Shown piece by piece: positions 15,025 through 62,707 of a stretch of DNA of 64,000 nucleotides; position 1 is the first letter of the stretch, and the number at the start of each line of letters is the position of its first letter. Source of the DNA: Helicobacter sp. Its GTDB lineage: Bacteria > Campylobacterota > Campylobacteria > Campylobacterales > Helicobacteraceae. Below the pieces are notes generated by a model. It was not told where the DNA came from. It was given only the letters and a program-made list of their open reading frames with translations, and searched no databases. The stretch lies in assembly GCF_022770205.1 (NCBI RefSeq), contig NZ_JALEIK010000018.1, positions 1-64,000 on the forward strand, given 5' to 3'. A program made the translations under genes and the position numbers.

Positions 15025-15035
15025 CCCCCCCCCCC
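15025..15035 (+). repeat. poly-C tract, 11 bases
   Basis: Eleven Cs preceded by TTTG and followed by GCAC, just downstream of an extended -10 promoter. The downstream frame is open through the tract but has no start codon upstream at this length. With 10 or 13 Cs a TTG at 15022 would come into frame. Confidence 0.95.
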
Positions 15036-28898: not shown

Positions 28899-29735
28899 TT
28901 ATTTTAGATTCTGTTTTAACTCCACAATCTCTTTATAAATTGCATCAAAGGCTAAGTTTGTGAAGGAAGCCTGTTTTTCTCCGCTGTGATGGAGTTGCAC
29001 AAGTGCTAATTTTGCCGCATTTTTTGCTGCAATTTGCTTCTCACTTACAGATTCTAAGGGTAAAAATAAATGCGTAGGCGACACGCCAAAAGTATCCCAA
29101 CACACATATTCCATACCCTCTAAAATCCGCTCCACTCTTACAAAATCCTGCACAAAAAGTGCTTCTGCATAAATAAGCGGACGATTTTTAGCAATAAGTT
29201 TCCTAGCCCCTTCTAACACTTTATGCTCCATTCCTTCCACATCAATTTTCATCGCCGTAATTTTCTCTTTTAAATTTAAGGCATCTAAAGGTTTGCAAAT
29301 AATCCCCCCCCCCCCGCACGACTCACCTTGCGTTAGGGACATCGCACCAAAATTATGTGGAATCTCATTGGCAAAATGCGCCACTTCCTCACAATTTGAC
29401 ACACCCATTTCATACACTTTAATGGCTTTTTCAAATTTATTAAGTTGAATGCTTTTCTTTGCAATGGCACTCATCTTAGGATTCGCTTCAAAGGCAATGA
29501 CTTTGTATCCATTTGCAGCAAAAAATAAAGAATGGTTTGCAATATTCATCCCCACATCAAGCACCACAGAGCCTTTTTGTAGCCTTTTTAGCATTGCTTG
29601 AAGCATTTCATATTCATAGGGTTGCTTTGTTGCATTGATAATCTTTTGGATATAATCTGTCTCTTTAAAGGGGAGATACATTTTATATTCCACGCCTTCT
29701 TCTTTTAAACTCAGTGTTACCACATTTTCTTGCAT
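28899..29735 (-). CDS. FkbM-family methyltransferase, phase-variable (ON)
   Basis: 278 residues. The AdoMet-binding motif reads VVLDVGMNIANHSLFFAANGYKVIAFEAN, and MKIDVEGMEHKVLEG is the conserved FkbM block. FkbM enzymes usually O-methylate sugars. A 12-base poly-G run (sense strand) encodes Gly residues at about 141-144; the frame is intact here. It is a paralogue of the gene at 56940, with matching N- and C-terminal blocks (THLFLPLE near the end). It lies 2 bases after a 42-residue membrane protein gene and outside the main glycan island. Confidence 0.85.
   Translation of the reverse strand: MQENVVTLSLKEEGVEYKMYLPFKETDYIQKIINATKQPYEYEMLQAMLKRLQKGSVVLDVGMNIANHSLFFAANGYKVIAFEANPKMSAIAKKSIQLNKFEKAIKVYEMGVSNCEEVAHFANEIPHNFGAMSLTQGESCGGGGIICKPLDALNLKEKITAMKIDVEGMEHKVLEGARKLIAKNRPLIYAEALFVQDFVRVERILEGMEYVCWDTFGVSPTHLFLPLESVSEKQIAAKNAAKLALVQLHHSGEKQASFTNLAFDAIYKEIVELKQNLK
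29304..29315 (-). repeat. poly-C (sense poly-G) tract, 12 bases
   Basis: Inside the FkbM gene at codons 141-144; sense strand flanked 5' by GTGC. Frame is ON at 12. Confidence 0.95.
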
Positions 29736-39678: not shown

Positions 39679-40653
39679 TTAGTTTAAAAATACTTCTTCA
39701 TAGAGCCTATTATTATGATTTAAATAACGCAAACTACGCCTATAATTATCAATAACAGCTGGTAATCTCTCCACATAATTCTCCGGCGTGCATTGCGCTA
39801 AGATTTTATTAAATCTATCCATATCACTAATATCCTCTTCACTCAAAACAATAATACCATCTAAATTGAAAAACTCTCCAATTGCCTTAGCTCCCAAGTA
39901 TAATGGAATCGTCATAGAAATAAAACAATCCATAATCTTTTCAGTAAAATAATATTTATTTTGTTCATTCTCCAATGCAATATTGTAACAATAAGTATCT
40001 AATGCCACAGACTTGTGCTCAATGTAATTATTCACAAAGTTTCCAAATAAATCCACACGCCCAACAAGCTGCCTTGCTAAAGCATTACGCTTTAAATGTA
40101 AAGGTGTAAATTCTTTTCCACTTACTACCATAGAAATTAACCGACACTTTTCTCTATATTTCTCATCATTCCACCTTAAAGGATCATCGCCAGAATATGC
40201 GAATATCGTAGCACCTACTGTATGAAATACCGCATTTGGCAATGCGTCAAGTAGCTTTTCATCATAGGTAATAATCCCTTCAAATGCTCTTGCTAAACCT
40301 CTATCTGCATACAATAAATCATACGAATGGCTCACAATACCTCTTGGCTCTTGTAAAAGCGCATAATTACGCTGATTTTGCCCCCCCCCCCGCATAATCT
40401 CTCCAATAGTAGCATCTGTATAAAAATGCGTATCTAAGGCAAAATTAAATCTATCCCACAAAAAATACCTATCCTTAACTTTTTGATTAGCTCCGTATGG
40501 ACAATGCGCTCCGCTTGCATCACGCAAAAAGAATATGTCCATTCTTTCACCTAAAGCATTATAAATTTCTGGCTTAACACTCTTTAAGGGAATATGTATA
40601 TTATAATACGGGACATAGCATCTCCCATAAACTGCATGATCAAAAGCTAGCAT
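39679..40653 (-). CDS. GT10-family (alpha-1,3/1,4-fucosyltransferase-type) glycosyltransferase, phase-variable (ON)
   Basis: 324 residues. The diagnostic C-terminal GT10 motif is present: NKYYFTEKIMDCFISMTIPLYLG, matching the sugar-nucleotide-binding TEK...P-Y-G pattern of Helicobacter FutA/FutB. The upstream Asn/Tyr-rich LENEQN block fits too. An 11-base sense poly-G at codons 88-91 (MRGGGQN) keeps frame here. AAGGAGGAG precedes the ATG. It sits between leuA and msrP, apart from other glycan genes. The donor may be GDP-fucose or another GDP-sugar. Confidence 0.85.
   Translation of the reverse strand: MLAFDHAVYGRCYVPYYNIHIPLKSVKPEIYNALGERMDIFFLRDASGAHCPYGANQKVKDRYFLWDRFNFALDTHFYTDATIGEIMRGGGQNQRNYALLQEPRGIVSHSYDLLYADRGLARAFEGIITYDEKLLDALPNAVFHTVGATIFAYSGDDPLRWNDEKYREKCRLISMVVSGKEFTPLHLKRNALARQLVGRVDLFGNFVNNYIEHKSVALDTYCYNIALENEQNKYYFTEKIMDCFISMTIPLYLGAKAIGEFFNLDGIIVLSEEDISDMDRFNKILAQCTPENYVERLPAVIDNYRRSLRYLNHNNRLYEEVFLN
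40381..40391 (-). repeat. poly-C (sense poly-G) tract, 11 bases
   Basis: Inside the GT10 gene; sense strand flanked 5' by ATGC. ON at 11. Confidence 0.95.
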
Positions 40654-50104: not shown

Positions 50105-50887
50105 ATGTTACTTGGAGTAAATATTGACCACATCGCAACCCTGCGCGAAGCAAGGAAAATCAACGACCCTGACCCACTTGAAGCGGTGTTTATTGCTAAA
50201 AGAGCCGGCGCAGACCAAATCACTTTGCATTTGCGCGAAGACCGCCGCCATATCCACGATGATGATGTGCTAAGAATCCGTAACTCTTCCATCCTTCCTT
50301 TAAATGTAGAATGCTCCATTAACCCAGAAATTCTTGATTTTATTTTAAAAATCTCCCCCCATCGCATAACTCTTGTGCCAGAAAATCGCCAAGAAGTTAC
50401 CACAGAAGGTGGGCTTGATGTGATAGGAAATTTTGATAGAATCGCAGAAATTACACGCAACTTTAAAGAGCACTGCATTGAAGTTTCCCTTTTTATTGAC
50501 ACACAAATTGACCAAATTTGCGCTGCAAAAGAAGTTGGTGCGCAAATGGTAGAACTCCACACAGGCACTTATGCTAATTTGCACTTAATGCTAAACTCTA
50601 ATCTCTCCTACACACACAACACCATAGAATCGCTAAAGCTCCCACGCTCTGAACTTAAAATGCGCCTTTTGGATTCCATCTCTAGCTTGCGTGATGGCGC
50701 AAAGGAAGCAAAATGGCTAGGGCTTGAAGTTGCCGCAGGACACGGATTAAACTACCACAACTTAACGCCCATTTTACAAATCCCAGAAATCATAGAGCTA
50801 AACATCGGGCAAAGCATCATCGCTCGCTCCATTTTCACAGGCTTAGAAGTTGCAATCAAAGAAATGGTAAAACAACTTAAGGATTAG
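50105..50887 (+). CDS. pdxJ: pyridoxine 5'-phosphate synthase
   Basis: Closes the ring of vitamin B6 in the DXP-dependent route. 260 residues, TIM barrel, GVNIDHIATLREAR at the N-terminus and GHGLNYHN near the end. Its stop overlaps the stop of hddC on the other strand by 4 bases, marking the edge of the glycan island. Confidence 0.96.
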   Translation: MLLGVNIDHIATLREARKINDPDPLEAVFIAKRAGADQITLHLREDRRHIHDDDVLRIRNSSILPLNVECSINPEILDFILKISPHRITLVPENRQEVTTEGGLDVIGNFDRIAEITRNFKEHCIEVSLFIDTQIDQICAAKEVGAQMVELHTGTYANLHLMLNSNLSYTHNTIESLKLPRSELKMRLLDSISSLRDGAKEAKWLGLEVAAGHGLNYHNLTPILQIPEIIELNIGQSIIARSIFTGLEVAIKEMVKQLKD

Positions 50888-51558
50888 CTCTCCTTTATTG
50901 TATGTTCAAAAGCCCTATAATCCTCTGGGATTCCAATATCTATGAAATATTCATCAAAAATTTCTGCTCTTGCAAAGAGTTCTCTAAAATGCTTCTGCAA
51001 AAACTCTTCAAAAGAAAATTTATCAGGGAGACTAAAATCTTCAAAAATATCTTTTGCCACCAAATATATCCCTCCATTTATCAAACCTTCCTTTAAAAAT
51101 TCCTTCTCATTAAAAGATTGCACAAATCCATTTTGGTCTATCTTAACTGCCCCATATCTATCAAAATTATACTTTTTTTTCAAAGCTAGGCAAATCTTGC
51201 TTTCTTGTAATTTAAGCTTCTTAAAATGAATTGGAAAAAAAGTATCTCCATTTAACACGAAACAATTTTTTGCAACATATCCTAACGCTTGCCTTATAGC
51301 TCCACCAGTCCCTAACAATTCCTTCTCAAAACTATATTCTACCTCAATATCTAAAAAGCAATTGCCAAAATAATCTTGTATCACTTCACTCCGATATGAC
51401 ACTGCCAAAACCACCTTTTTAATACCTTGCAATTTTAGATATTCAAAGACATATTCCAAAAACGGCTTCCCATTAACCTGCGCCATTGGCTTTGGAATGC
51501 CACTCACAACGCTTCTTAACCGACTTCCAAGCCCCCCACAAAGAACAATTGCCTCCAA
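50884..51558 (-). CDS. hddC: D-glycero-D-manno-heptose 1-phosphate guanylyltransferase-type nucleotidyltransferase
   Basis: Nucleotidyltransferase of about 224 residues that would load heptose-1-phosphate onto GMP. The signature is EAIVLCGGLGSRLRSVVSGIPKPMAQVNGKPFL. Gene context with hddA supports a GDP-heptose product rather than glucose or mannose. No ATG is available: TTG at 51558 lies 6 bases after AAAGG and gives an N-terminus like that of C. jejuni HddC; TTG at 51564 is the alternative. Confidence 0.8.
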   Translation of the reverse strand: MEAIVLCGGLGSRLRSVVSGIPKPMAQVNGKPFLEYVFEYLKLQGIKKVVLAVSYRSEVIQDYFGNCFLDIEVEYSFEKELLGTGGAIRQALGYVAKNCFVLNGDTFFPIHFKKLKLQESKICLALKKKYNFDRYGAVKIDQNGFVQSFNEKEFLKEGLINGGIYLVAKDIFEDFSLPDKFSFEEFLQKHFRELFARAEIFDEYFIDIGIPEDYRAFEHTIKES

Positions 51559-51583
51559 AATCAACCTTTAAAAATCAACCTTT
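51557..51583 (-). repeat. 13-base tandem repeat at the methyltransferase/hddC junction
   Basis: AAAATCAACCTTT occurs twice, separated by one A. On the minus strand each unit carries AAAGGTTGA, so both a ribosome-binding site and a stop codon are duplicated at the gene junction. Confidence 0.7.
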
Positions 51584-52783
51584 TTATCCCTCCAGCTGTC
51601 AAAATAACAGATTTCAAATTAGGCATTACTCCCTTTTTATAAAGTAGCAAAACCTCATTTGTAAAAATATTCTCTTCATGCAATGGAGCAGACATTAAAA
51701 TACAATCAATATTTTTTAGCTCTTTATCATCTAGTCCAACAATCTGTATGCAACTCTTTTGCAAAAATCTCCCTTGTTTATCAGGATTAATATCTACACA
51801 TTTCTTAATCTTTTTTAAATTTTCTTTTGCGATAAAACCCAATAGGCTATTAGAATGAATACCCCCCCCCCACAGCACAATACTCTTTGCTTGAGATAAA
51901 TAAGTATTCATTAAAGCAATATCTTTAGAAAAGTCAACGCCATCAAAACATTGCACCTGTAATTTTCCCATTTGAACTTCCCGCGTTTTTTCAAAAAATA
52001 AACCCATCCACATTCCATTGTAAGGATAAATTTCATCAATCAACTTACAGCCCAACTCATACATCACACCAACTAAAGTATCTCTTTGAAAATAACTCAC
52101 ATGGTCGTGATAAAAGTCATAGAAAATTTTGGATTCCATAATTTTTGTTGCATTAGGAACTTCCATATAAATTTTTCCTTCATCACTAACAAAATCTACC
52201 ACATCTTTCAAAAAATAATAAGGCTGTTCTATGTGTTCTAACAAGTGCCTAAAAATAATAAAATTGATAGGCTCTTTAATTTTTTCTCTAATTACATCAA
52301 TCTCAAAAAAACTTTGAATATGAATGACATTGTCAATATCTTTTACAACCAAAGAAGTTGGGGAAGGGTCTACACTATAAACTCTCTTGCTTTCCTTTGC
52401 TAAAGCTACCAACAAATCTCCGTGACCCGGAGCAATTTCCAAAAAAACATCATTGACATTAGCATAGTTTTTAATTTTATCTTTAGTTTGCATTAAAGTT
52501 TTACTTAATCTATCTGTAAAATACTTTTGCTGATAATATTCTCCGCTTGTATAGACTTTCAGCATTTTATTCTTATCAAAAGCCATATTATAAACAAGCC
52601 CACATTGTTGGCATTGTTGCATATCCATAGTGCAATCACCTTGCGCATAACCATCTTCATCTATGCTAGAAATTTTACTATTTGGGAAAATATCTCCAGA
52701 AGCAAAAACATTCCCTAAAAACAAAATACCCTTAAAAACTGATAGCTTATTACATAAAGGACAAACCCTCTCTCTACAATTAT

Positions 52784-52796
<13 letters not shown>
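51561..52796 (-). CDS. C-methyltransferase-type sugar methyltransferase, phase-variable (ON)
   Basis: 411 residues in the architecture of NDP-sugar C-methyltransferases. N-terminal zinc site with CPLCNK and CQQCGLVYN, central AdoMet fold (FLEIAPGHGDLLVALAK), and a C-terminal domain starting SIVLWGGGIHSNSLLGF. A 10-base sense poly-G encodes the glycines at about 309-311; the frame is intact. GTG start with GAAGGAG upstream. In the C. jejuni heptose locus a phase-variable methyltransferase (Cj1426) sits at the same position, but whether this one is orthologous is not certain. Confidence 0.8.
51862..51871 (-). repeat. poly-C (sense poly-G) tract, 10 bases
   Basis: Inside the C-methyltransferase-type gene near codon 309; ON at 10. 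Sense 5' flank is GCTGT, not the TGC seen at several other tracts. Confidence 0.95.
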
Positions 52797-54776
<1,980 letters not shown>

Positions 54777-54847: not shown

Positions 54848-55822
54848 TTAATACCAACATAAACAATCTTTACAAAAATCAACCCCTGCTCTTCCTTCTC
54901 TTAAATGCACTTCTCTGATTTTTTGCAATTCTTTGGAATCTTTCCACACTTCAGCAATACTTTGTATCTCAACATTGCCAAGAGTAACATTCCGACATTG
55001 ATCTACACAACAAACCGCAACTTGCCCATCTGTTTTAATCACCATTGTATTCCAAATTGCATAACAAGGTGTAGCATTAGCTTCATCAAAAAGCATATTC
55101 CTATCATACTCTAGCTCAGATAACGCCCCCCCCCCGCCAGTATATTTACTTTTATTTATAATTCCTAACGATAAGTCATCAATCTTAATACTATCCCCTT
55201 TATCCTTATCTAAAATTTTTTCCCAAAACCCTACAATCTTATCCATAGCATCAAGATAATAACTATTTTTAATCACACTAATTCTCACAGCCGTTTTGGA
55301 TTCCAACTTATTCCTTAACATTACAAAAGCAATCACATTTCCCAAAACTTCCTCAAAAGACAAGCCCTTTCTAATACTTTCATAAGCCCTCTTATCTAAT
55401 CCATCAATAGAAAAATTAACCCTCTCTAAAGAACTCTTTAAAATATCCTCTGCCATTTTTCCACGCATCAGTGAACCATTGCTTGTAATACTGACTTTTA
55501 CACCATTTTCTGTAAAATAACGGATTCTTTGGGGCAAGAATTTATCCAATAATGGTTCATTACCGACAAATAGAGCTACCTTTTGCACATATTGTTTATT
55601 GTCCAATATCTCATCGGCAATTTTTTTAAAAACCTCATCATTCATATACGATTTTTTAATTTTTCTTCGCCACTCATCAATTCCACACATAACACATCGT
55701 GCCGTACAATTATTAGTTGTCTCTATATTGATAAATCGTGGAAAATTTTTATAGTCTTCAAGACATCCCCCCTTACCTCCATCCAAAACCTTATTTATCA
55801 CATATTCCAAGTTTTTATCCAC
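54848..55822 (-). CDS. radical SAM/SPASM protein in the glycan island, phase-variable (ON)
   Basis: 324 residues. The cluster motif CxxxCxxC is at Cys39, Cys43 and Cys46 (CTARCVMC). The AdoMet-binding region follows (FVGNEPLLD, VSITSNGSL). The C-terminus has a SPASM-like Cys set (VCCVDQC...FCKDCLCW) for an extra Fe-S cluster. A 10-base sense poly-G at about codons 230-232 keeps the frame. GTG start with AAGGATT. Possible roles are radical chemistry on a sugar nucleotide or on a protein; nothing in the sequence decides between them. Confidence 0.82.
   Translation of the reverse strand: MDKNLEYVINKVLDGGKGGCLEDYKNFPRFINIETTNNCTARCVMCGIDEWRRKIKKSYMNDEVFKKIADEILDNKQYVQKVALFVGNEPLLDKFLPQRIRYFTENGVKVSITSNGSLMRGKMAEDILKSSLERVNFSIDGLDKRAYESIRKGLSFEEVLGNVIAFVMLRNKLESKTAVRISVIKNSYYLDAMDKIVGFWEKILDKDKGDSIKIDDLSLGIINKSKYTGGGGALSELEYDRNMLFDEANATPCYAIWNTMVIKTDGQVAVCCVDQCRNVTLGNVEIQSIAEVWKDSKELQKIREVHLREGRAGVDFCKDCLCWY
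55126..55135 (-). repeat. poly-C (sense poly-G) tract, 10 bases
   Basis: Inside the radical SAM gene; ON at 10. Confidence 0.95.
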
Positions 55823-55827
55823 AATCC

Positions 55828-56889
55828 TTATCCTCTTTTAACAGATACATCTAAGTACCATTGATATAACATTTTAACACCTTGCTCCAAAGCAACCTTA
55901 TATTTCCAGCCAAAACTCTGCAGCCTTGAACAATCAGGCAGCTTTCTAAAAGTTCCATCTGGCTTTGTAGCATCAAAAAACAATTTTCCTCCAAAGCCAA
56001 CAATACAACCAATCATTTCAGCCAATTCTTTAATGGATACATCACTGCCATAACCAATATTTATATGTGTATTACGGACTTCTTTTGTATCACCCACACA
56101 TAAATCCTTAAAGTCAATGTTCTCCATCACAAATACACAAGCATCCGCCATATCACTACTATGCAAAAACTCTCTACGCGGATTCCCACTACCCCAAATC
56201 TCTACACCATCAGCACGAATTCCAAATCTATCACAATATTCTTTTGCTTTTTCTATGGAATCCAAATTTAAATCTTTCAAAATCATTGAATAATTCGCTT
56301 GTGCTAAAAGCTTTGATAAATGCATCTTTCGTATAAGAGCTGGTAAAACATGACAATTTTCCAAATCAAAGTTATCATCAGCCCCATAAATACCCGTAGG
56401 CATCACACTAATAAAGTTTGTGCCATATTGTAAATTATAAGACTCACACATTTTAAGCCCCGCAATTTTAGCGATTGCATAAGGCTCATTTGTGTATTCC
56501 AAAGGACTTGTTAAAAGATATTCCTCTTTAATGGGCTGTGGAGATTCCTTAGGATAAATACAAGTTGTTCCTAGAAACAACAACTTTTTTGTTTTGCTTA
56601 AATAAGATTGATGGATAACATTATTTTGTATCATTAGATTTTGATAGATAAAATCCGCTCTATAAGTATTATTTGCAGAGATTCCACCAACCTTAGCAGC
56701 AGACAAAAACACATACTCGGGCTTTTCTTTTTCAAAAAACTCTCTCACAGCCACTTGATTTGTTAAATCAAGCTCACTATGTGTTCTATACACTAAATTT
56801 TCATAACCCTTATCTCGCAAATTTTTAACAATCGCAGAACCTGTTAAACCTCTATGTCCGGCAACATAAATTTTAGAATCTTTTTTCAC
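55828..56889 (-). CDS. GDP-L-fucose synthase-like reductase (Fcl/MlghC type)
   Basis: 353 residues of the Fcl branch of SDR enzymes. NADP site GHRGLTGSAIV, YxxxK in YAIAKIAGLKMCESYN, and SVMPTGIYGADDNFD. In the C. jejuni heptose locus the equivalent Fcl-like enzyme (Cj1428) reduces the C4 ketone after epimerisation. With an RmlC-like partner here rather than a Gmd dehydratase, a heptose reductase is more likely than a true fucose synthase, by context. GTG start. Confidence 0.82.
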   Translation of the reverse strand: MKKDSKIYVAGHRGLTGSAIVKNLRDKGYENLVYRTHSELDLTNQVAVREFFEKEKPEYVFLSAAKVGGISANNTYRADFIYQNLMIQNNVIHQSYLSKTKKLLFLGTTCIYPKESPQPIKEEYLLTSPLEYTNEPYAIAKIAGLKMCESYNLQYGTNFISVMPTGIYGADDNFDLENCHVLPALIRKMHLSKLLAQANYSMILKDLNLDSIEKAKEYCDRFGIRADGVEIWGSGNPRREFLHSSDMADACVFVMENIDFKDLCVGDTKEVRNTHINIGYGSDVSIKELAEMIGCIVGFGGKLFFDATKPDGTFRKLPDCSRLQSFGWKYKVALEQGVKMLYQWYLDVSVKRG

Positions 56890-56939: not shown

Positions 56940-57761
56940 TTATCTCCCACTACCGATTAAAGACTTAATTTCAAAAATTGCCTTATAAATTTCATCAAAG
57001 GCAAAATTAGCCCAAGTATTTTGCTTAACAGGCGAATTCCCAACATGATTAAGAGCAAGTTTTGTCATACATCTTACTAGCATCTCCCTCTCACTAACCA
57101 TCTCTAGAGGCAAAAACAAATGCGTTGGTGCTTCATCAAAAGAATCCCAACATACATAATTCATTTTCTCTAGAATACGACTACTTCTAGATAATTCTGG
57201 AAATGTATTACCTTCTAAGTATATAATAGGTCTATTTTTTTCTATTAATTTCGCCCCCCCCCCTATCACCTTATGCTCCATTCCCTCAACATCTATTTTT
57301 ATTAATGCGACTTTCTCTTTAATATTAAGGCCATCAAGAGTTTTACAATTAACTTGAATACAGCCTGGTTGAGTTTCTTGTCCATCAAACAATGTAATCC
57401 CATTCTCTTGGCAAAAAAGTGTTTCGTTTTTGTTGGATAAACCAAAATCATAGATAGTTACTTTTTTGTCAAAATCATTCAATTGCATACTTGCTTTTGC
57501 ATATGAAGCATACTTTCCATTAGCTTCAAAAGCTATAACCTTAAAACCATTTGCTGCCAAAAACAAAGAATGATTACCAATATGCATTCCTATGTCCAAA
57601 ACTAAAGAGCCTTTAGGAATTCTACTTATCATATCCTTTAAAATTTCATACTCATAGGGAACGCCTGTTTTACCAATAAGATTCTTATAATCTTCATTTA
57701 AACACATCTTATAAGAAACTTTCTCATCCTCTAAATTTAATGTTACAACATCTTGATTCAT
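56940..57761 (-). CDS. FkbM-family methyltransferase, phase-variable (ON)
   Basis: 273 residues, paralogue of the gene at 28899. SLVLDIGMHIGNHSLFLAANGFKVIAFEAN is motif I, IKIDVEGMEHKV is the FkbM block, and THLFLPLEMVSER matches the paralogue. A 10-base sense poly-G encodes glycines at about 167-169, a different position from the tract in the paralogue. A near-perfect ribosome-binding site (AAGGAGGT) precedes the ATG. Probably O-methylates a capsule or LOS sugar. Confidence 0.85.
   Translation of the reverse strand: MNQDVVTLNLEDEKVSYKMCLNEDYKNLIGKTGVPYEYEILKDMISRIPKGSLVLDIGMHIGNHSLFLAANGFKVIAFEANGKYASYAKASMQLNDFDKKVTIYDFGLSNKNETLFCQENGITLFDGQETQPGCIQVNCKTLDGLNIKEKVALIKIDVEGMEHKVIGGGAKLIEKNRPIIYLEGNTFPELSRSSRILEKMNYVCWDSFDEAPTHLFLPLEMVSEREMLVRCMTKLALNHVGNSPVKQNTWANFAFDEIYKAIFEIKSLIGSGR
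57254..57263 (-). repeat. poly-C (sense poly-G) tract, 10 bases
   Basis: Inside the FkbM gene near codon 167; ON at 10. Sense 5' flank is GTGATA. Confidence 0.95.
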
Positions 57762-57920: not shown

Positions 57921-58849
57921 TTAAACAGAAAAACGAATAGGAATCTCCGGATTTGCCAAAAAGCTTGGGCTATCAAGCCCTTCTAATTCTCCACAGCTCT
58001 CTCTAAATCCATTCTTAAAATAAGATTCCGCCAAATCATTCCTTAAATAGCTAACTTCAATTGTTGTGCTAAAAAACAACCCTTTAGAGTAAAAAATTTT
58101 TCCGTGATTATTAAAATGCGTGTGGATGGGCGTAAAATATTTTCTTAAACATTCCAATATTTTTGTTCTCTTGTTCACACCATCTTGCTCCTCCGGATTA
58201 CATCCGTGAAACTCAAAAATCACCTGCGTAAAACACTTACTCAAACTCTCTATTTCTATCTCTTGTAGCATATCCCATTCACTATTTTCAATATCACATT
58301 GCAAAATATTATTTTCACCCGCAATAAACCCATTATCCGCTATAACTTGACCCAAAGTGATAAAACTCGCATCATTTCTAGTTCCAATGAATTTTTTATG
58401 AAATGTGATATTAGGGTGATCATAAGGGGATTTTTCAATGCTTCCATCATACTCTATCACCTTATAGCCCATTTCCGCCATCTCTAAATCCCACGGAGAA
58501 TATTTAGAAACCCCTAAAGAAATAGCCTTAGCTGCTAGAAAGCCCCCCCCCCCGCACATTCCATAATTACATAACCACCATCACTATTTCCACCAATACG
58601 CTTAAGACTATCCAATGGAATCGCTAAGGGCTGAATCAACTTCAAATATTTTTGGATATTCTCAAAACATTGCGCATTATGATTAATGCGCACATAATTG
58701 CTGTCTCTATTTTGCAGCAAAAGAAGCAAAATTTCTTTATCTACTTTATCTATATTAGAATTTACAATAATATTAGACATCAAAATTTGATAATTAATTT
58801 GATTATTTAAAACTATATTTTTATTTAATTCCTTTAAAACTTCTTTCAT
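57921..58849 (-). CDS. FkbM-like sugar methyltransferase, phase-variable (OFF)
   Basis: Two overlapping frames meet at an 11-base sense poly-G. The first, from the ATG at 58849 (AAGGAATAAG upstream), reads ...GGNSDGGYVIMECAGGG and then stops. The second continues FLAAKAISLGVSKYSPWDLEMAEMGYKVIEYD to the end at 57921. Joined they give about 309 residues of a DUF/FkbM-like methyltransferase. The join needs the run to be a multiple of three (9 or 12), so this copy is OFF by one base. A separate ATG at the tract could express the C-terminal part alone. Confidence 0.78.
58543..58553 (-). repeat. poly-C (sense poly-G) tract, 11 bases
   Basis: Switch tract of the FkbM-like gene near codon 99; OFF at 11. 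Sense 5' flank is TGTGC. Confidence 0.95.
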
Positions 58850-58850
58850 C

Positions 58851-59396
58851 TTATTCCTTAATTTTTGTTGCCAATACATCCCTATCCGACAAAATAGGAT
58901 TCTTTGTAGGCCAGTCAATTCCTATTCTTTCATCATTCCAAGCATATGTGAATTGATCCTCTGCGTCTAAATATTCACCTTCATAAGCCAACTTGTAATA
59001 ATACACTGCATTTTCGCTACTCACATAATGTGAATTCCCCATATTTGGCGGAATCAAAATCAATTTTTGATCATTTGGGCTTATAATAAATCTCTCCCAT
59101 TGCAAATATGTTGGCGAATCTTTTCTGCAATCCACCACCACTTGATGCACTTCTCCATACACGCAAGTAACAAGCTTATAAGTTTTAACATCTCCATGAA
59201 TTCCGCGTAACACATTAAAATGTGAATTGATAAATTTATCGTGCTTAAACTTTAATCCATTTGGCAATAATTTCTCAAAATGCCCTTCCATAAAAGCCGT
59301 CCAAATCTCTCCGCGCAAATCCTTAAATTTATTAGGCGTGATAACATGCACTCCCTTTAAGATTTTAGATTCCTTAATATCAAACTCCATAACCAT
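58851..59396 (-). CDS. RmlC-like sugar-nucleotide epimerase (MlghB/DdahB type)
   Basis: 181 residues, cupin fold. Catalytic-type His in NVLRGIHGDVKTYKLVTCVYGEVHQVVVDCRKDS; IPPNMGNSHYV and YAWNDERIGIDWP close the domain. This form closely recalls the Campylobacter GDP-keto-heptose C3/C5 epimerases rather than rhamnose RmlC. The start is placed at the ATG giving MVMEFDI; an ATG 18 bases upstream at 59414 overlaps the alternative stop of the glycosyltransferase. Confidence 0.85.
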   Translation of the reverse strand: MVMEFDIKESKILKGVHVITPNKFKDLRGEIWTAFMEGHFEKLLPNGLKFKHDKFINSHFNVLRGIHGDVKTYKLVTCVYGEVHQVVVDCRKDSPTYLQWERFIISPNDQKLILIPPNMGNSHYVSSENAVYYYKLAYEGEYLDAEDQFTYAWNDERIGIDWPTKNPILSDRDVLATKIKE

Positions 59397-59462
59397 ACAT
59401 ACCCCTAATCTCATACATTAATCGCACTTAACTTTTTTGACACAACTGCTATCTCAATGCGC

Positions 59463-60953
59463 TTAAGATAGGGAAAAATCTCTGTAAAAAGCCCCCCCCA
59501 GCACACTGCTCATTTCGTGGGCTTTAAGTAAAAAATTAGCAATACGATAATAATCATTTAAATACTCTAACACAACATAATAATTTGGAATCCTTTTTGC
59601 ATCCTCCCCAAGTTGTGAAACAAACAGCCCAACTCTAAAGGCAAAATAGACTAAATAAGGATAATTCTCCACATCATAAACCCTGCAACTCTCAAAAAAG
59701 ATTCCATTAAAAAACCCTCCATACCCTATTGATTCAAAAACTTTTTTAAAAAAGCTCTCTCTATCACTAGGATAAATTTGCTCTAGCAAAGCATTTGCGC
59801 CAGCATAATCCCCACTTTTCAAAAGCATATTAAGAGACAAAACTTTATAAAAATTTGTTCCATAGAGATTACAAGCATACTCCGCACATTGCTTTAAATA
59901 TGCAATATCTTTTTTAAACTCCACACCAAACAAAAACAGCTTCATATACGCAAACGCTTTATGTGCAGGGTGAAAATCATATTGACTAAGAGCTTGTTCT
60001 ATAAGATTTGCTTGCTCTTGCGCCGTCCATAAATCATCAGGCGACACAGACTCCTTAATGTTTCCAATCCGCATCGCAAGCCCAGAAAACCCAGAACTTC
60101 CACCATTGCATATCTTTTTAGCACAAGACATAAACACAATTTCAAAAATGCTCTGCTCATACCCTAGATACACCTCACGCCTAAAAAAATCATCCACGCA
60201 ATAAACCACACCATTTTGCTTTAAATTTGCCTTTTGTTTGGAATCCTTTTTGAAAATGCTTTTAAAAATCTCTCCCGCCCTTAAATCATCGCTAAAAATC
60301 ACAATATCGCTTCCCTTTTCTAGCTCTAATCTTGCCATCTCCACAGCCAAATACACACTAAAGCCTGTCTTTTGACAAACTACAGACGCCCAAGTATCGC
60401 CAAAAACAATATCCCCTGAACGAATATGAAAAGCAACAAAACCTTTTTTCAACTTCTTTACTTGCTTTTTAGCCTCCTGCATCACATTTTGTATGGGAGT
60501 GGAAAATTCTATTGCATTCCAGCAATCTTTTAATAACTCCCTGTATCTCTCATCATCCATATCATCATAAGACAACATTTCCCCAAGACTATACCAACCA
60601 AACTCTAGCGGAAAAGGTGGAATCTTATATCTAGCAAGATTCTCTGCTTTCACATAGGATGGAATTTGCTCCACATTTCCTACATAACTATCCTCCACCC
60701 CATATTTCTCAATAAAACTCTTTTCAAACAGCTCATCTTTTAAAGGCAAATTTGCAAAAGGAATTAGCACCTGACCATTCTCTAAATTCTTATCAAACTC
60801 AGAAAGAAACGGCGCATCCTTTGGAGCTAGCCAAGAAAATTTAAACTCCATATCCGCTAGCTTTGCTAATGCCATTGCATTTAGTATTGCACACATCCTA
60901 GCACCAAATCCATCTGTGCGCCCAGCAACAATCCAAGGTTTTTTAGATTCCAT
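59463..60953 (-). CDS. large fucosyltransferase-fold-like glycosyltransferase with phase-variable C-terminus
   Basis: 496 residues in the present frame. The N-terminus WIVAGRTDGFGARMCAILNAMALA and the HIRSGD motif at 176-181 fit the alpha-1,2/O-fucosyltransferase-like GT-B group. VYCVDDFFRR and SSGFSGLAMRIG complete the donor-site pattern; residues 330-490 are helical, TPR-like. An 8-base sense poly-G at codon 485 gives a tail ending FYRDFSLS. With 7 or 10 Gs the frame would continue for about 28 coding-like residues to 59412. First gene of the island, with GAAGGATAAAT before the ATG. Confidence 0.72.
   Translation of the reverse strand: MESKKPWIVAGRTDGFGARMCAILNAMALAKLADMEFKFSWLAPKDAPFLSEFDKNLENGQVLIPFANLPLKDELFEKSFIEKYGVEDSYVGNVEQIPSYVKAENLARYKIPPFPLEFGWYSLGEMLSYDDMDDERYRELLKDCWNAIEFSTPIQNVMQEAKKQVKKLKKGFVAFHIRSGDIVFGDTWASVVCQKTGFSVYLAVEMARLELEKGSDIVIFSDDLRAGEIFKSIFKKDSKQKANLKQNGVVYCVDDFFRREVYLGYEQSIFEIVFMSCAKKICNGGSSGFSGLAMRIGNIKESVSPDDLWTAQEQANLIEQALSQYDFHPAHKAFAYMKLFLFGVEFKKDIAYLKQCAEYACNLYGTNFYKVLSLNMLLKSGDYAGANALLEQIYPSDRESFFKKVFESIGYGGFFNGIFFESCRVYDVENYPYLVYFAFRVGLFVSQLGEDAKRIPNYYVVLEYLNDYYRIANFLLKAHEMSSVLGGAFYRDFSLS
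59492..59499 (-). repeat. poly-C (sense poly-G) tract, 8 bases
   Basis: Near the 3' end of the glycosyltransferase gene; chooses between two C-termini. Confidence 0.85.
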
Positions 60954-61190: not shown

Positions 61191-62707
61191 ATGCTAAAAC
61201 TCTCAAAAACCACATTCATTTTAATAAACACCATACTTTTAACACTGCTTAATCTTAATTTATTTTTATTTATTGCAAAAAATCTCAATGATTTGTTTTT
61301 GACTTTTATGCTTGTTGTTTGTTATTTTTGCATTGTTTTTATTATTTTAAATATAATCTTTATCAAATATTTTACAAAACTTTTTTCCATACTTTTTATT
61401 ACTAGTGCCACTTTTAGCGTGTATTTTATGTCTTCTTATGGAATCTTAATTGACTCTGATATGATTCTTAATGTAATGCAAACAGACGCAAAAGAAGCCT
61501 CAGAGTTATTCAACACTTCTTTGATTTTTATAGGAATTATTTGCCTTGCATTTTATCTTTTTGTCTTGAAAATAGAAATCAAAAGCGATTCCATCTTTAA
61601 GAGATTCCTAAATTCTTGTGTAGCCCTTATCCTAGCATTAGCTGTGTTTCTACCCTTCACAAAAGCCTATATTCCCTTTTTTAGAAATTATAAAATTATA
61701 AGAATGTATAACACGCCTTTCTATCAGTTCTACTCCATCTATCGCTATTATCAACAATTTGTAGCCCCCCCCCCGCAACTCAAAACAATCTCTAATGATG
61801 CGACTTTATAAAACACAGACAAAAGCCTTTTAGTTCTAGTTGTAGGGGAAACCGCAAGGGCTAAAAATTATTCACTAGGCACATACACGCATAATGACAC
61901 AAACTTTTACACCAAAGAAAAAATGTAGTCTTTTTTGACAACTTTTTCTCTTGTGGCACTTCCACCGCCATAAGCCTTCCTTGTATGTTTTCTCTCTCCA
62001 AAAGGGCAGATTTTAAAACCACGGAGCACCAAGAAAACGCCTTAGATATTTTACAGAAAGTCGGCGTTAGCGTGTCTTGGTATGACAATAATTCCGGAGG
62101 TTGTAAGGGAGTGTGTGAAAGAATTGCTGATACCAAAATCCTATCCAAACCCTTTGATGAATCCTTGCTTGAACCTTTTAAAAATAAGCTAGAAAACCTT
62201 GAAAATCAAAATATTATCATCTTACATTTGCAAGGCTCGCACGGACCAACTTACTATAAGCGTTATCCTAGTGCTTTTAAAAAATTTACTCCAACTTGCG
62301 ACACAAACGAGCTTGCCAAATGCTCCCAAGAATCACTAATGAATACTTATGACAATACCTTGCTTTACACAGATTTTATCCTAAAGGAAATCATTCAATC
62401 TTTACAAACAAAAACAGAGTATAAAACCGCCCTGCTCTATGTTTCAGACCACGGCGAGAGTTTGGGAGAAAATGGCATTTATTTGCACGGAATGCCCTAT
62501 ATCTTCGCACCACAAGAGCAAACCCATATTCCAACAATCTTTTGGAGCAACGATTCTACGCTAATGCAACTTGCTACAGAACATAAAAGCTTAAAATTAT
62601 CCCACGACAATCTATTTTCCACAATTCTAGGATTTTTTCAAGTTTCCACAAAAGAGTATTCTATTAGCGATGATTTCTTAAACAAAAAATTAAAGGTGAA
62701 ATCTTGA
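61191..62707 (+). pseudogene. eptA: phosphoethanolamine transferase (EptA/EptC), broken by a stop and a frameshift
   Basis: Family role: moves phosphoethanolamine from PE to lipid A (and FlgG in C. jejuni). The first part (to 61811) has five membrane helices and ends ISNDATL-stop. The same frame then resumes with SLLVLVVGETARAKNYSLG, carrying the catalytic Thr, so the TAA at 61809-61811 is a nonsense mutation. A second lesion in the A run at about 61916-61922 (six As where seven are needed) shifts the frame, which then reads NVVFFDN...SCGTSTAISLPCMF. The C-terminal half from 61985 is intact (SDHGESLGENGIYLHG). A 10-base poly-C at codon 192 is in frame. Confidence 0.85.
61765..61774 (+). repeat. 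poly-C tract, 10 bases
   Basis: In the eptA pseudogene, encoding the prolines of VAPPPQ; the frame is kept across the tract. The sense strand is C here, unlike the minus-strand genes. Confidence 0.95.

Follow-up and report, generated by a model that had tools for sequence, protein, structure and literature searches.

A phase-variable radical SAM/twitch enzyme, probably acting in sugar tailoring, in a GDP-heptose locus of Helicobacter sp.

What does a radical SAM enzyme do among the genes for GDP-heptose synthesis, and why would its gene carry a run of ten Gs? The question is raised by a 64,000-nucleotide stretch of DNA from Helicobacter sp., the whole of which was analysed and is referred to here as the window. 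The GDP-heptose chemistry of C. jejuni is well mapped and uses NAD-dependent and cupin-type enzymes, and the review PMC10680097, which covers roughly 20 heptose enzymes, includes no radical SAM enzyme (the word 'radical' is absent), in agreement with a first-pass annotation of this DNA, according to which none was known to be assigned to the Campylobacter heptose pathway. We consider it fairly probable that the enzyme (hereafter rSAM) is a phase-variable, sugar-tailoring, BtrN-like twitch enzyme acting on heptose; its substrate, the carbon attacked, the reaction and the carrier glycan are what we infer below. The gene and its tract are as follows.

54848-55822, minus strand: radical SAM/twitch enzyme (rSAM), 324 aa, ON in this assembly, with PF04055 and PF13186
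55126-55135, minus strand (C10 on the plus strand): G10 tract of rSAM, gene nt 688-697, codons 230-233, in frame

The rSAM gene begins with GTG downstream of an AAGGA-type ribosome site, and the opposite (plus) strand is dense with stops. Pfam places Radical_SAM (PF04055) at residues 33-163 (9e-17) and SPASM (PF13186) at residues 253-320 (7e-12), which bears out the radical SAM assignment. The CxxxCxxC motif that had been read at 39-46 consists of C39, C43 and C46, invariant in both alignments, as expected of the radical SAM superfamily. A second, C-terminal Cys-rich cluster had also been described and named SPASM. The cluster itself is sound, given that C253, C271, C317 and C320 are all invariant in the two alignments; they align with the ligand Cys of the single BtrN cluster and bring the total to seven invariant Cys (three core and four auxiliary), the same set as in BtrN. 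The name fits less well, because a full SPASM domain has two auxiliary clusters and about seven auxiliary Cys, and the second-cluster Cys are absent from rSAM despite the PF13186 match. Judged by the alignments, the C-terminal domain is a BtrN-like 'twitch' with one auxiliary cluster rather than a full SPASM domain.

The 10-G run had been noted at about codon 230, where we find it, and the length of the tract sets the reading frame. At exactly 10 G the gene is ON, and simulated tracts of 8, 9, 11 or 12 G give products of 234-237 aa that end ahead of C253, the first auxiliary-cluster Cys, with loss of the whole C-terminal Fe-S domain. The window holds eight G/C runs of at least 10, where a first-order Markov model predicts 0.016, so the rSAM tract is not a chance run. 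In the predicted structure the tract encodes part of a low-confidence loop (residues 218-237, pLDDT<50) between the core and the twitch domain, and the segment is a 4-residue insertion relative to most homologues; a Gly stretch is hence plausibly tolerated there. The related gene is ON in genome G527 and OFF in genome G540. In the window species the ON state is read from one assembly, and together these sequences support the earlier description of rSAM as a phase-variable gene. Other long C runs in the window lie at 40381 in a GT10-like gene (39679-40653), at 29304 in an FkbM gene (28899-29735) adjoining a Na/Pi cotransporter gene, and at 15025 right after a LysE-type gene.

Radical SAM enzymes had been said to be rarely under poly-G control, which proved wrong here. 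Six of the ten radical SAM homologues examined in this genome have a tract of at least 10 within the ORF, and a 2018 list (PMC6321876) includes two from C. fetus subsp. testudinum with G9-10 tracts, so such control is usual in this lineage. The two C. fetus genes (CFT03427_1545 and _1558) also lie among methyltransferase, SDR and formyltransferase genes. They differ from the present case in that they were catalogued only, and in that the likely equivalent genome, G375, has homologues of 30-32% identity in a locus without GDP-heptose genes.

The genes surrounding rSAM match the C. jejuni enzymes that turn GDP-D-glycero-D-manno-heptose into a GDP-L-gluco-type heptose (PMC10680097).

50884-51564, minus strand: HddC, D-glycero-D-manno-heptose 1-phosphate guanylyltransferase (NF049965, 359 bits, cut-off 300)
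51561-52796, minus strand: class I methyltransferase (PF13489) with an in-frame G10 tract at 51862; weak C-methyltransferase C-terminal match, PF08484 just under cut-off
52784-53818, minus strand: HddA, D-glycero-D-manno-heptose 7-phosphate kinase (NF049969, 666 bits, cut-off 600)
53799-54737, minus strand: Cj1427 homologue, GDP-heptose C4-dehydrogenase (PDB 6VO6, E=2e-179)
55828-56889, minus strand: Cj1428-type GDP-4-keto-heptose C4-reductase homologue (PDB 7ANH 9e-152, 7M13 1e-126)
56940-57761, minus strand: FkbM-type methyltransferase (PF05050), G10 tract at 57254
57921-58918, minus strand: second FkbM-like gene, OFF, split at a G11 tract (58543-58553) into ORFs 57921-58559 and 58535-58918
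58851-59414, minus strand: Cj1430 homologue, GDP-4-keto-heptose 3,5-epimerase (PDB 7AN4 7e-107, 7M14 2e-106)
59463-60953, minus strand: probable glycosyltransferase (GT gene), HxRxGD motif, no Pfam match

The gap between rSAM and the Cj1427 homologue is 110 nt, and that to the Cj1428 homologue is 5 nt. The second FkbM-like gene has an intact homologue (63% match) in the heptose locus of G357 (L110:13220-14143), and the GT gene has a 24% match to a gene adjoining the heptose genes of the same genome. The locus thus resembles the C. jejuni pathway (Cj1423-Cj1430) in its homologues of HddA, HddC, the C4-dehydrogenase, the 3,5-epimerase and the C4-reductase, and in the presence of poly-G on tailoring genes. 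It differs in that no radical SAM step is described for C. jejuni (PMC10680097), in that the window genome is without KpsC/KpsS, and in that the locus is without gmhA. Tracts of at least 8 occur in rSAM, in three methyltransferase genes and, as C8, close to where the GT gene ends, and in none of the five core heptose genes of the window, a distribution that fits a decorating rather than an essential rSAM step. The missing gmhA (50884-54737) is also missing from the G009 heptose locus, and the sole SIS_2 match over cut-off in the window genome is on contig C16. Very long tracts also occur in other heptose loci, namely C17 (L100, 2743) and G16 and G15 (L117, 6672 and 7246).

The genomic co-occurrence proposed earlier as a check also ties rSAM to the GDP-heptose pathway. 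Besides the window genome (G000), rSAM is linked to heptose genes in G527 (68% identity to the window protein), G540 (about 64%; the gene is interrupted at the tract) and G009 (55%), that is, in four genomes of two families. In the tree, which the interrupted G540 gene entered as its two pieces linked by XX with all bases left unaltered, the window, G527 and G540 proteins form a clade (support 99/98), and the G009 copy is placed next to it without support. The window gene has its tract at codon 230, those of G527 (G10, intact, ON) and G540 (G9, broken, OFF) have it at about codon 105, and that of G009 has none. With two tract sites in one gene, the switch must have originated at least twice or else been lost once and gained once, and from these positions poly-G switching of the heptose-locus rSAM probably arose at least twice.

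A structure of rSAM was predicted from 15 rows comprising the window, L009 and viral-contig sequences (pLDDT 81.6). The first-pass annotation had proposed comparison with AdoMet sugar dehydratases and SPASM maturases. DesII (Z 21.0, rmsd 4.9, 293 aligned) and BtrN (Z 20.8, rmsd 2.8, 227 aligned) are tied on top, but SuiB and ChlB (both Z 20.1) are within 1 Z of the top and anSME is close to BtrN. The sequence profile gives BtrN at 2.9e-34, DesII at 4e-13 and BlsE at 1e-11, and BtrN is by this measure the closest solved relative. DesII, a TDP-4-amino-4,6-dideoxy-glucose deaminase, is like rSAM a radical SAM enzyme and acts on a nucleotide sugar, but its sequence match spans the core only. BtrN, the 2-deoxy-scyllo-inosamine dehydrogenase of the butirosin pathway, has a radical SAM core, a one-cluster, four-Cys twitch domain and a carbohydrate-like alcohol as its substrate. 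The rSAM clade differs from it in its pathway, its poly-G switch, an identity of only about 19% and an extra Cys, Cys276. Arg152 of BtrN, which we take to be an active-site residue, is not conserved in the alignment; where BtrN has SNRGG, wider relatives have HNWGG and the rSAM clade lacks the stretch.

Nine residues (T40, N88, S182, K185, D215, K263, A269, Q275 and C276) are invariant across the eight members of the clade and occur in none of the other 13 rows. Cys276 lies five residues past the second auxiliary Cys (C271); the intervening C272 is Asn in two of the eight members. A protein Cys is the known or proposed H donor in several radical epimerases (NeoN Cys249, EpeE Cys223, PoyD Cys372). 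NeoN, AviX12 and EpeE abstract and return H on sugars or peptides, with such a Cys known or proposed for NeoN and EpeE, and are likened to rSAM by their described chemistry, not by close sequence relation. Because Cys276 is clade-specific and Cys donors are known or proposed for radical epimerases, we slightly prefer epimerisation over a BtrN-type oxidation.

In the mechanism that we favour, the operon would make GDP-heptose through HddA and HddC, followed by C4 oxidation, C3/C5 epimerisation and C4 reduction, and the product would be placed onto a surface glycan. With the G tract in frame, full-length rSAM would be made, and a [4Fe-4S] cluster at C39/C43/C46 would cleave SAM. The resulting 5'-deoxyadenosyl radical would abstract a hydrogen at a carbinol position of the heptose, either on the GDP-sugar or after transfer, and the substrate radical would be resolved beside the auxiliary cluster held by C253, C271, C317 and C320. 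Slippage in the tract would leave an rSAM of about 235 aa without the twitch domain, so that cells would alternate between modified and unmodified heptose. If rSAM does tailor a sugar in this way, a redox-neutral epimerisation with Cys276 as candidate H donor would be the most likely reaction, though we favour it tentatively; a BtrN-type two-electron oxidation to a ketone comes next as a possibility, and deoxygenation or another reaction is possible too. We cautiously suggest that rSAM may bring radical SAM chemistry into a GDP-heptose pathway for the first time, as a twitch enzyme that carries a clade-specific candidate H-donor Cys and would invert or oxidise one heptose carbon, and whose poly-G switch would have been gained independently at two gene sites.

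The strongest alternative, which we nevertheless regard as rather unlikely, is a BtrN-type dehydrogenase in which an electron moves from the substrate radical to the four-Cys auxiliary cluster, giving a ketone on the heptose that is later reduced or left in place. The sequence relation to BtrN and the common set of three plus four Cys speak for it, as does the two-electron oxidation that BtrN carries out with its four-Cys auxiliary cluster (PMC9012708), and G009 has a second Cj1428-type reductase. However, second reductases are also found in heptose loci without rSAM (G017), the window heptose locus has no aminotransferase partner, and Arg152 of BtrN is not conserved.

Deoxygenation of the heptose by an enzyme of the AdoMet sugar dehydratase type is suggested by the position of the gene. 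Of 11 close loci, 8 have a heptose 4,6-dehydratase gene (homologous to PDB 7US5) in the slot that the homologues of Cj1427 and Cj1428 enclose, with a poly-G tract in 7 of these 8; the other three have there a methyltransferase gene like that at 51561, rSAM (the window), and rSAM with a TylF methyltransferase gene (G009). Genome-wide, the 4,6-dehydratase gene is lacking in G000 and G009, and the tied top fold match, DesII, is a nucleotide-sugar deaminase, all of which would suit a radical alternative to the dehydratase. Replacement looked strong while only these two genomes were known, but G527 and G540 have both enzymes, so rSAM is better seen as one of several tailoring genes, and we consider deoxygenation in this form improbable.

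Slightly less probable still is that rSAM belongs to an unrelated glycan system and stands among heptose genes by chance. Clade relatives do occur in a separate sugar locus without GDP-heptose genes (L027, L030, L009), including paralogues in an rSAM-rich locus of the same genome, and the substrate hence need not be heptose itself. Against chance stand the linkage to heptose loci in four genomes of two families and the clade that three of these proteins form. The separate locus (L027 1-20000, on its own contig C13; also L009, L030, L032 and L085) is large, with several radical SAM genes, a split transketolase, C-methyltransferases, a DegT aminotransferase, a formyltransferase and SDR genes, and has up to 13 long G tracts per 20 kb. 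A related cluster in G300 (L087) adjoins an MptE-like (Maf-type) gene. In G009 (L030 4865-18010), at least seven poly-G tracts have the common 5' flank CTCTGC, mostly as TTCTCTGC or something close to it, a pattern that looks as though tract and flank had moved together from gene to gene. Plasmid and phage collections hold rSAM relatives of only 23-26% identity, one of them, in Brachyspira, among epimerase, methyltransferase, GDP-mannose 4,6-dehydratase and glycan genes; IMG/VR contigs L043-L048 encode radical SAM/twitch proteins of 33-36% identity.

A protein-modifying role had been offered on first pass. We consider it very improbable that rSAM is a maturase of peptides or proteins (RiPP/sactipeptide or sulfatase-maturase type) placed by chance in a glycan locus. 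SuiB, ChlB and anSME come near BtrN in fold score, but rSAM reaches no NCBIfam maturase cut-off (best 81.6 vs 380 bits), has four auxiliary Cys only, and has its close relatives all in sugar loci. A viperin (pVip) or other defence role was also rejected (NF038283 46.8 bits vs a cut-off of 180; the PADLOC pVip match is confined to the core).

Returning to a sugar-tailoring rSAM, the locus had been called capsule-type. The homologues of Cj1427, Cj1428, Cj1430, HddA and HddC establish a GDP-heptose locus, but a capsule locus was rejected as improbable for this genome, which is 99.99% complete and in which no PF05159 (KpsC/KpsS) gene was found; nor was one found in G009, whereas all 12 other genomes searched have one. 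The distance between heptose and kps genes is 8-20 kb in five genomes of the Campylobacter family. The rSAM-bearing heptose loci of G527 and G540, in contrast, are about 325 kb from kps and on another contig, respectively. In G527, heptosyltransferase, lipid A acyltransferase and GT4 genes are found 5-10 kb from the heptose locus, past an apparent rRNA operon whose presence is deduced from a spurious ORF; in the window the heptose locus is followed by an EptA-type gene and dgkA. With kps absent or distant and these genes nearby, LOS/LPS is a likelier carrier of the heptose than capsule. The EptA/EptB-type phosphoethanolamine transferase gene (61191-62707, plus strand; dgkA is next) is split at a C10 run (61765-61774) into an N part with PF08019 and a C part with the sulfatase domain PF00884, and looks phase-variable and OFF.

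If this reading is true, a radical SAM step would broaden the chemistry by which surface heptoses are diversified, possibly reaching carbons beyond the known enzymes. It would also constitute a defined, switchable sugar modification that could be tested in vitro with GDP-heptoses, for which enzymatic synthesis is already available.
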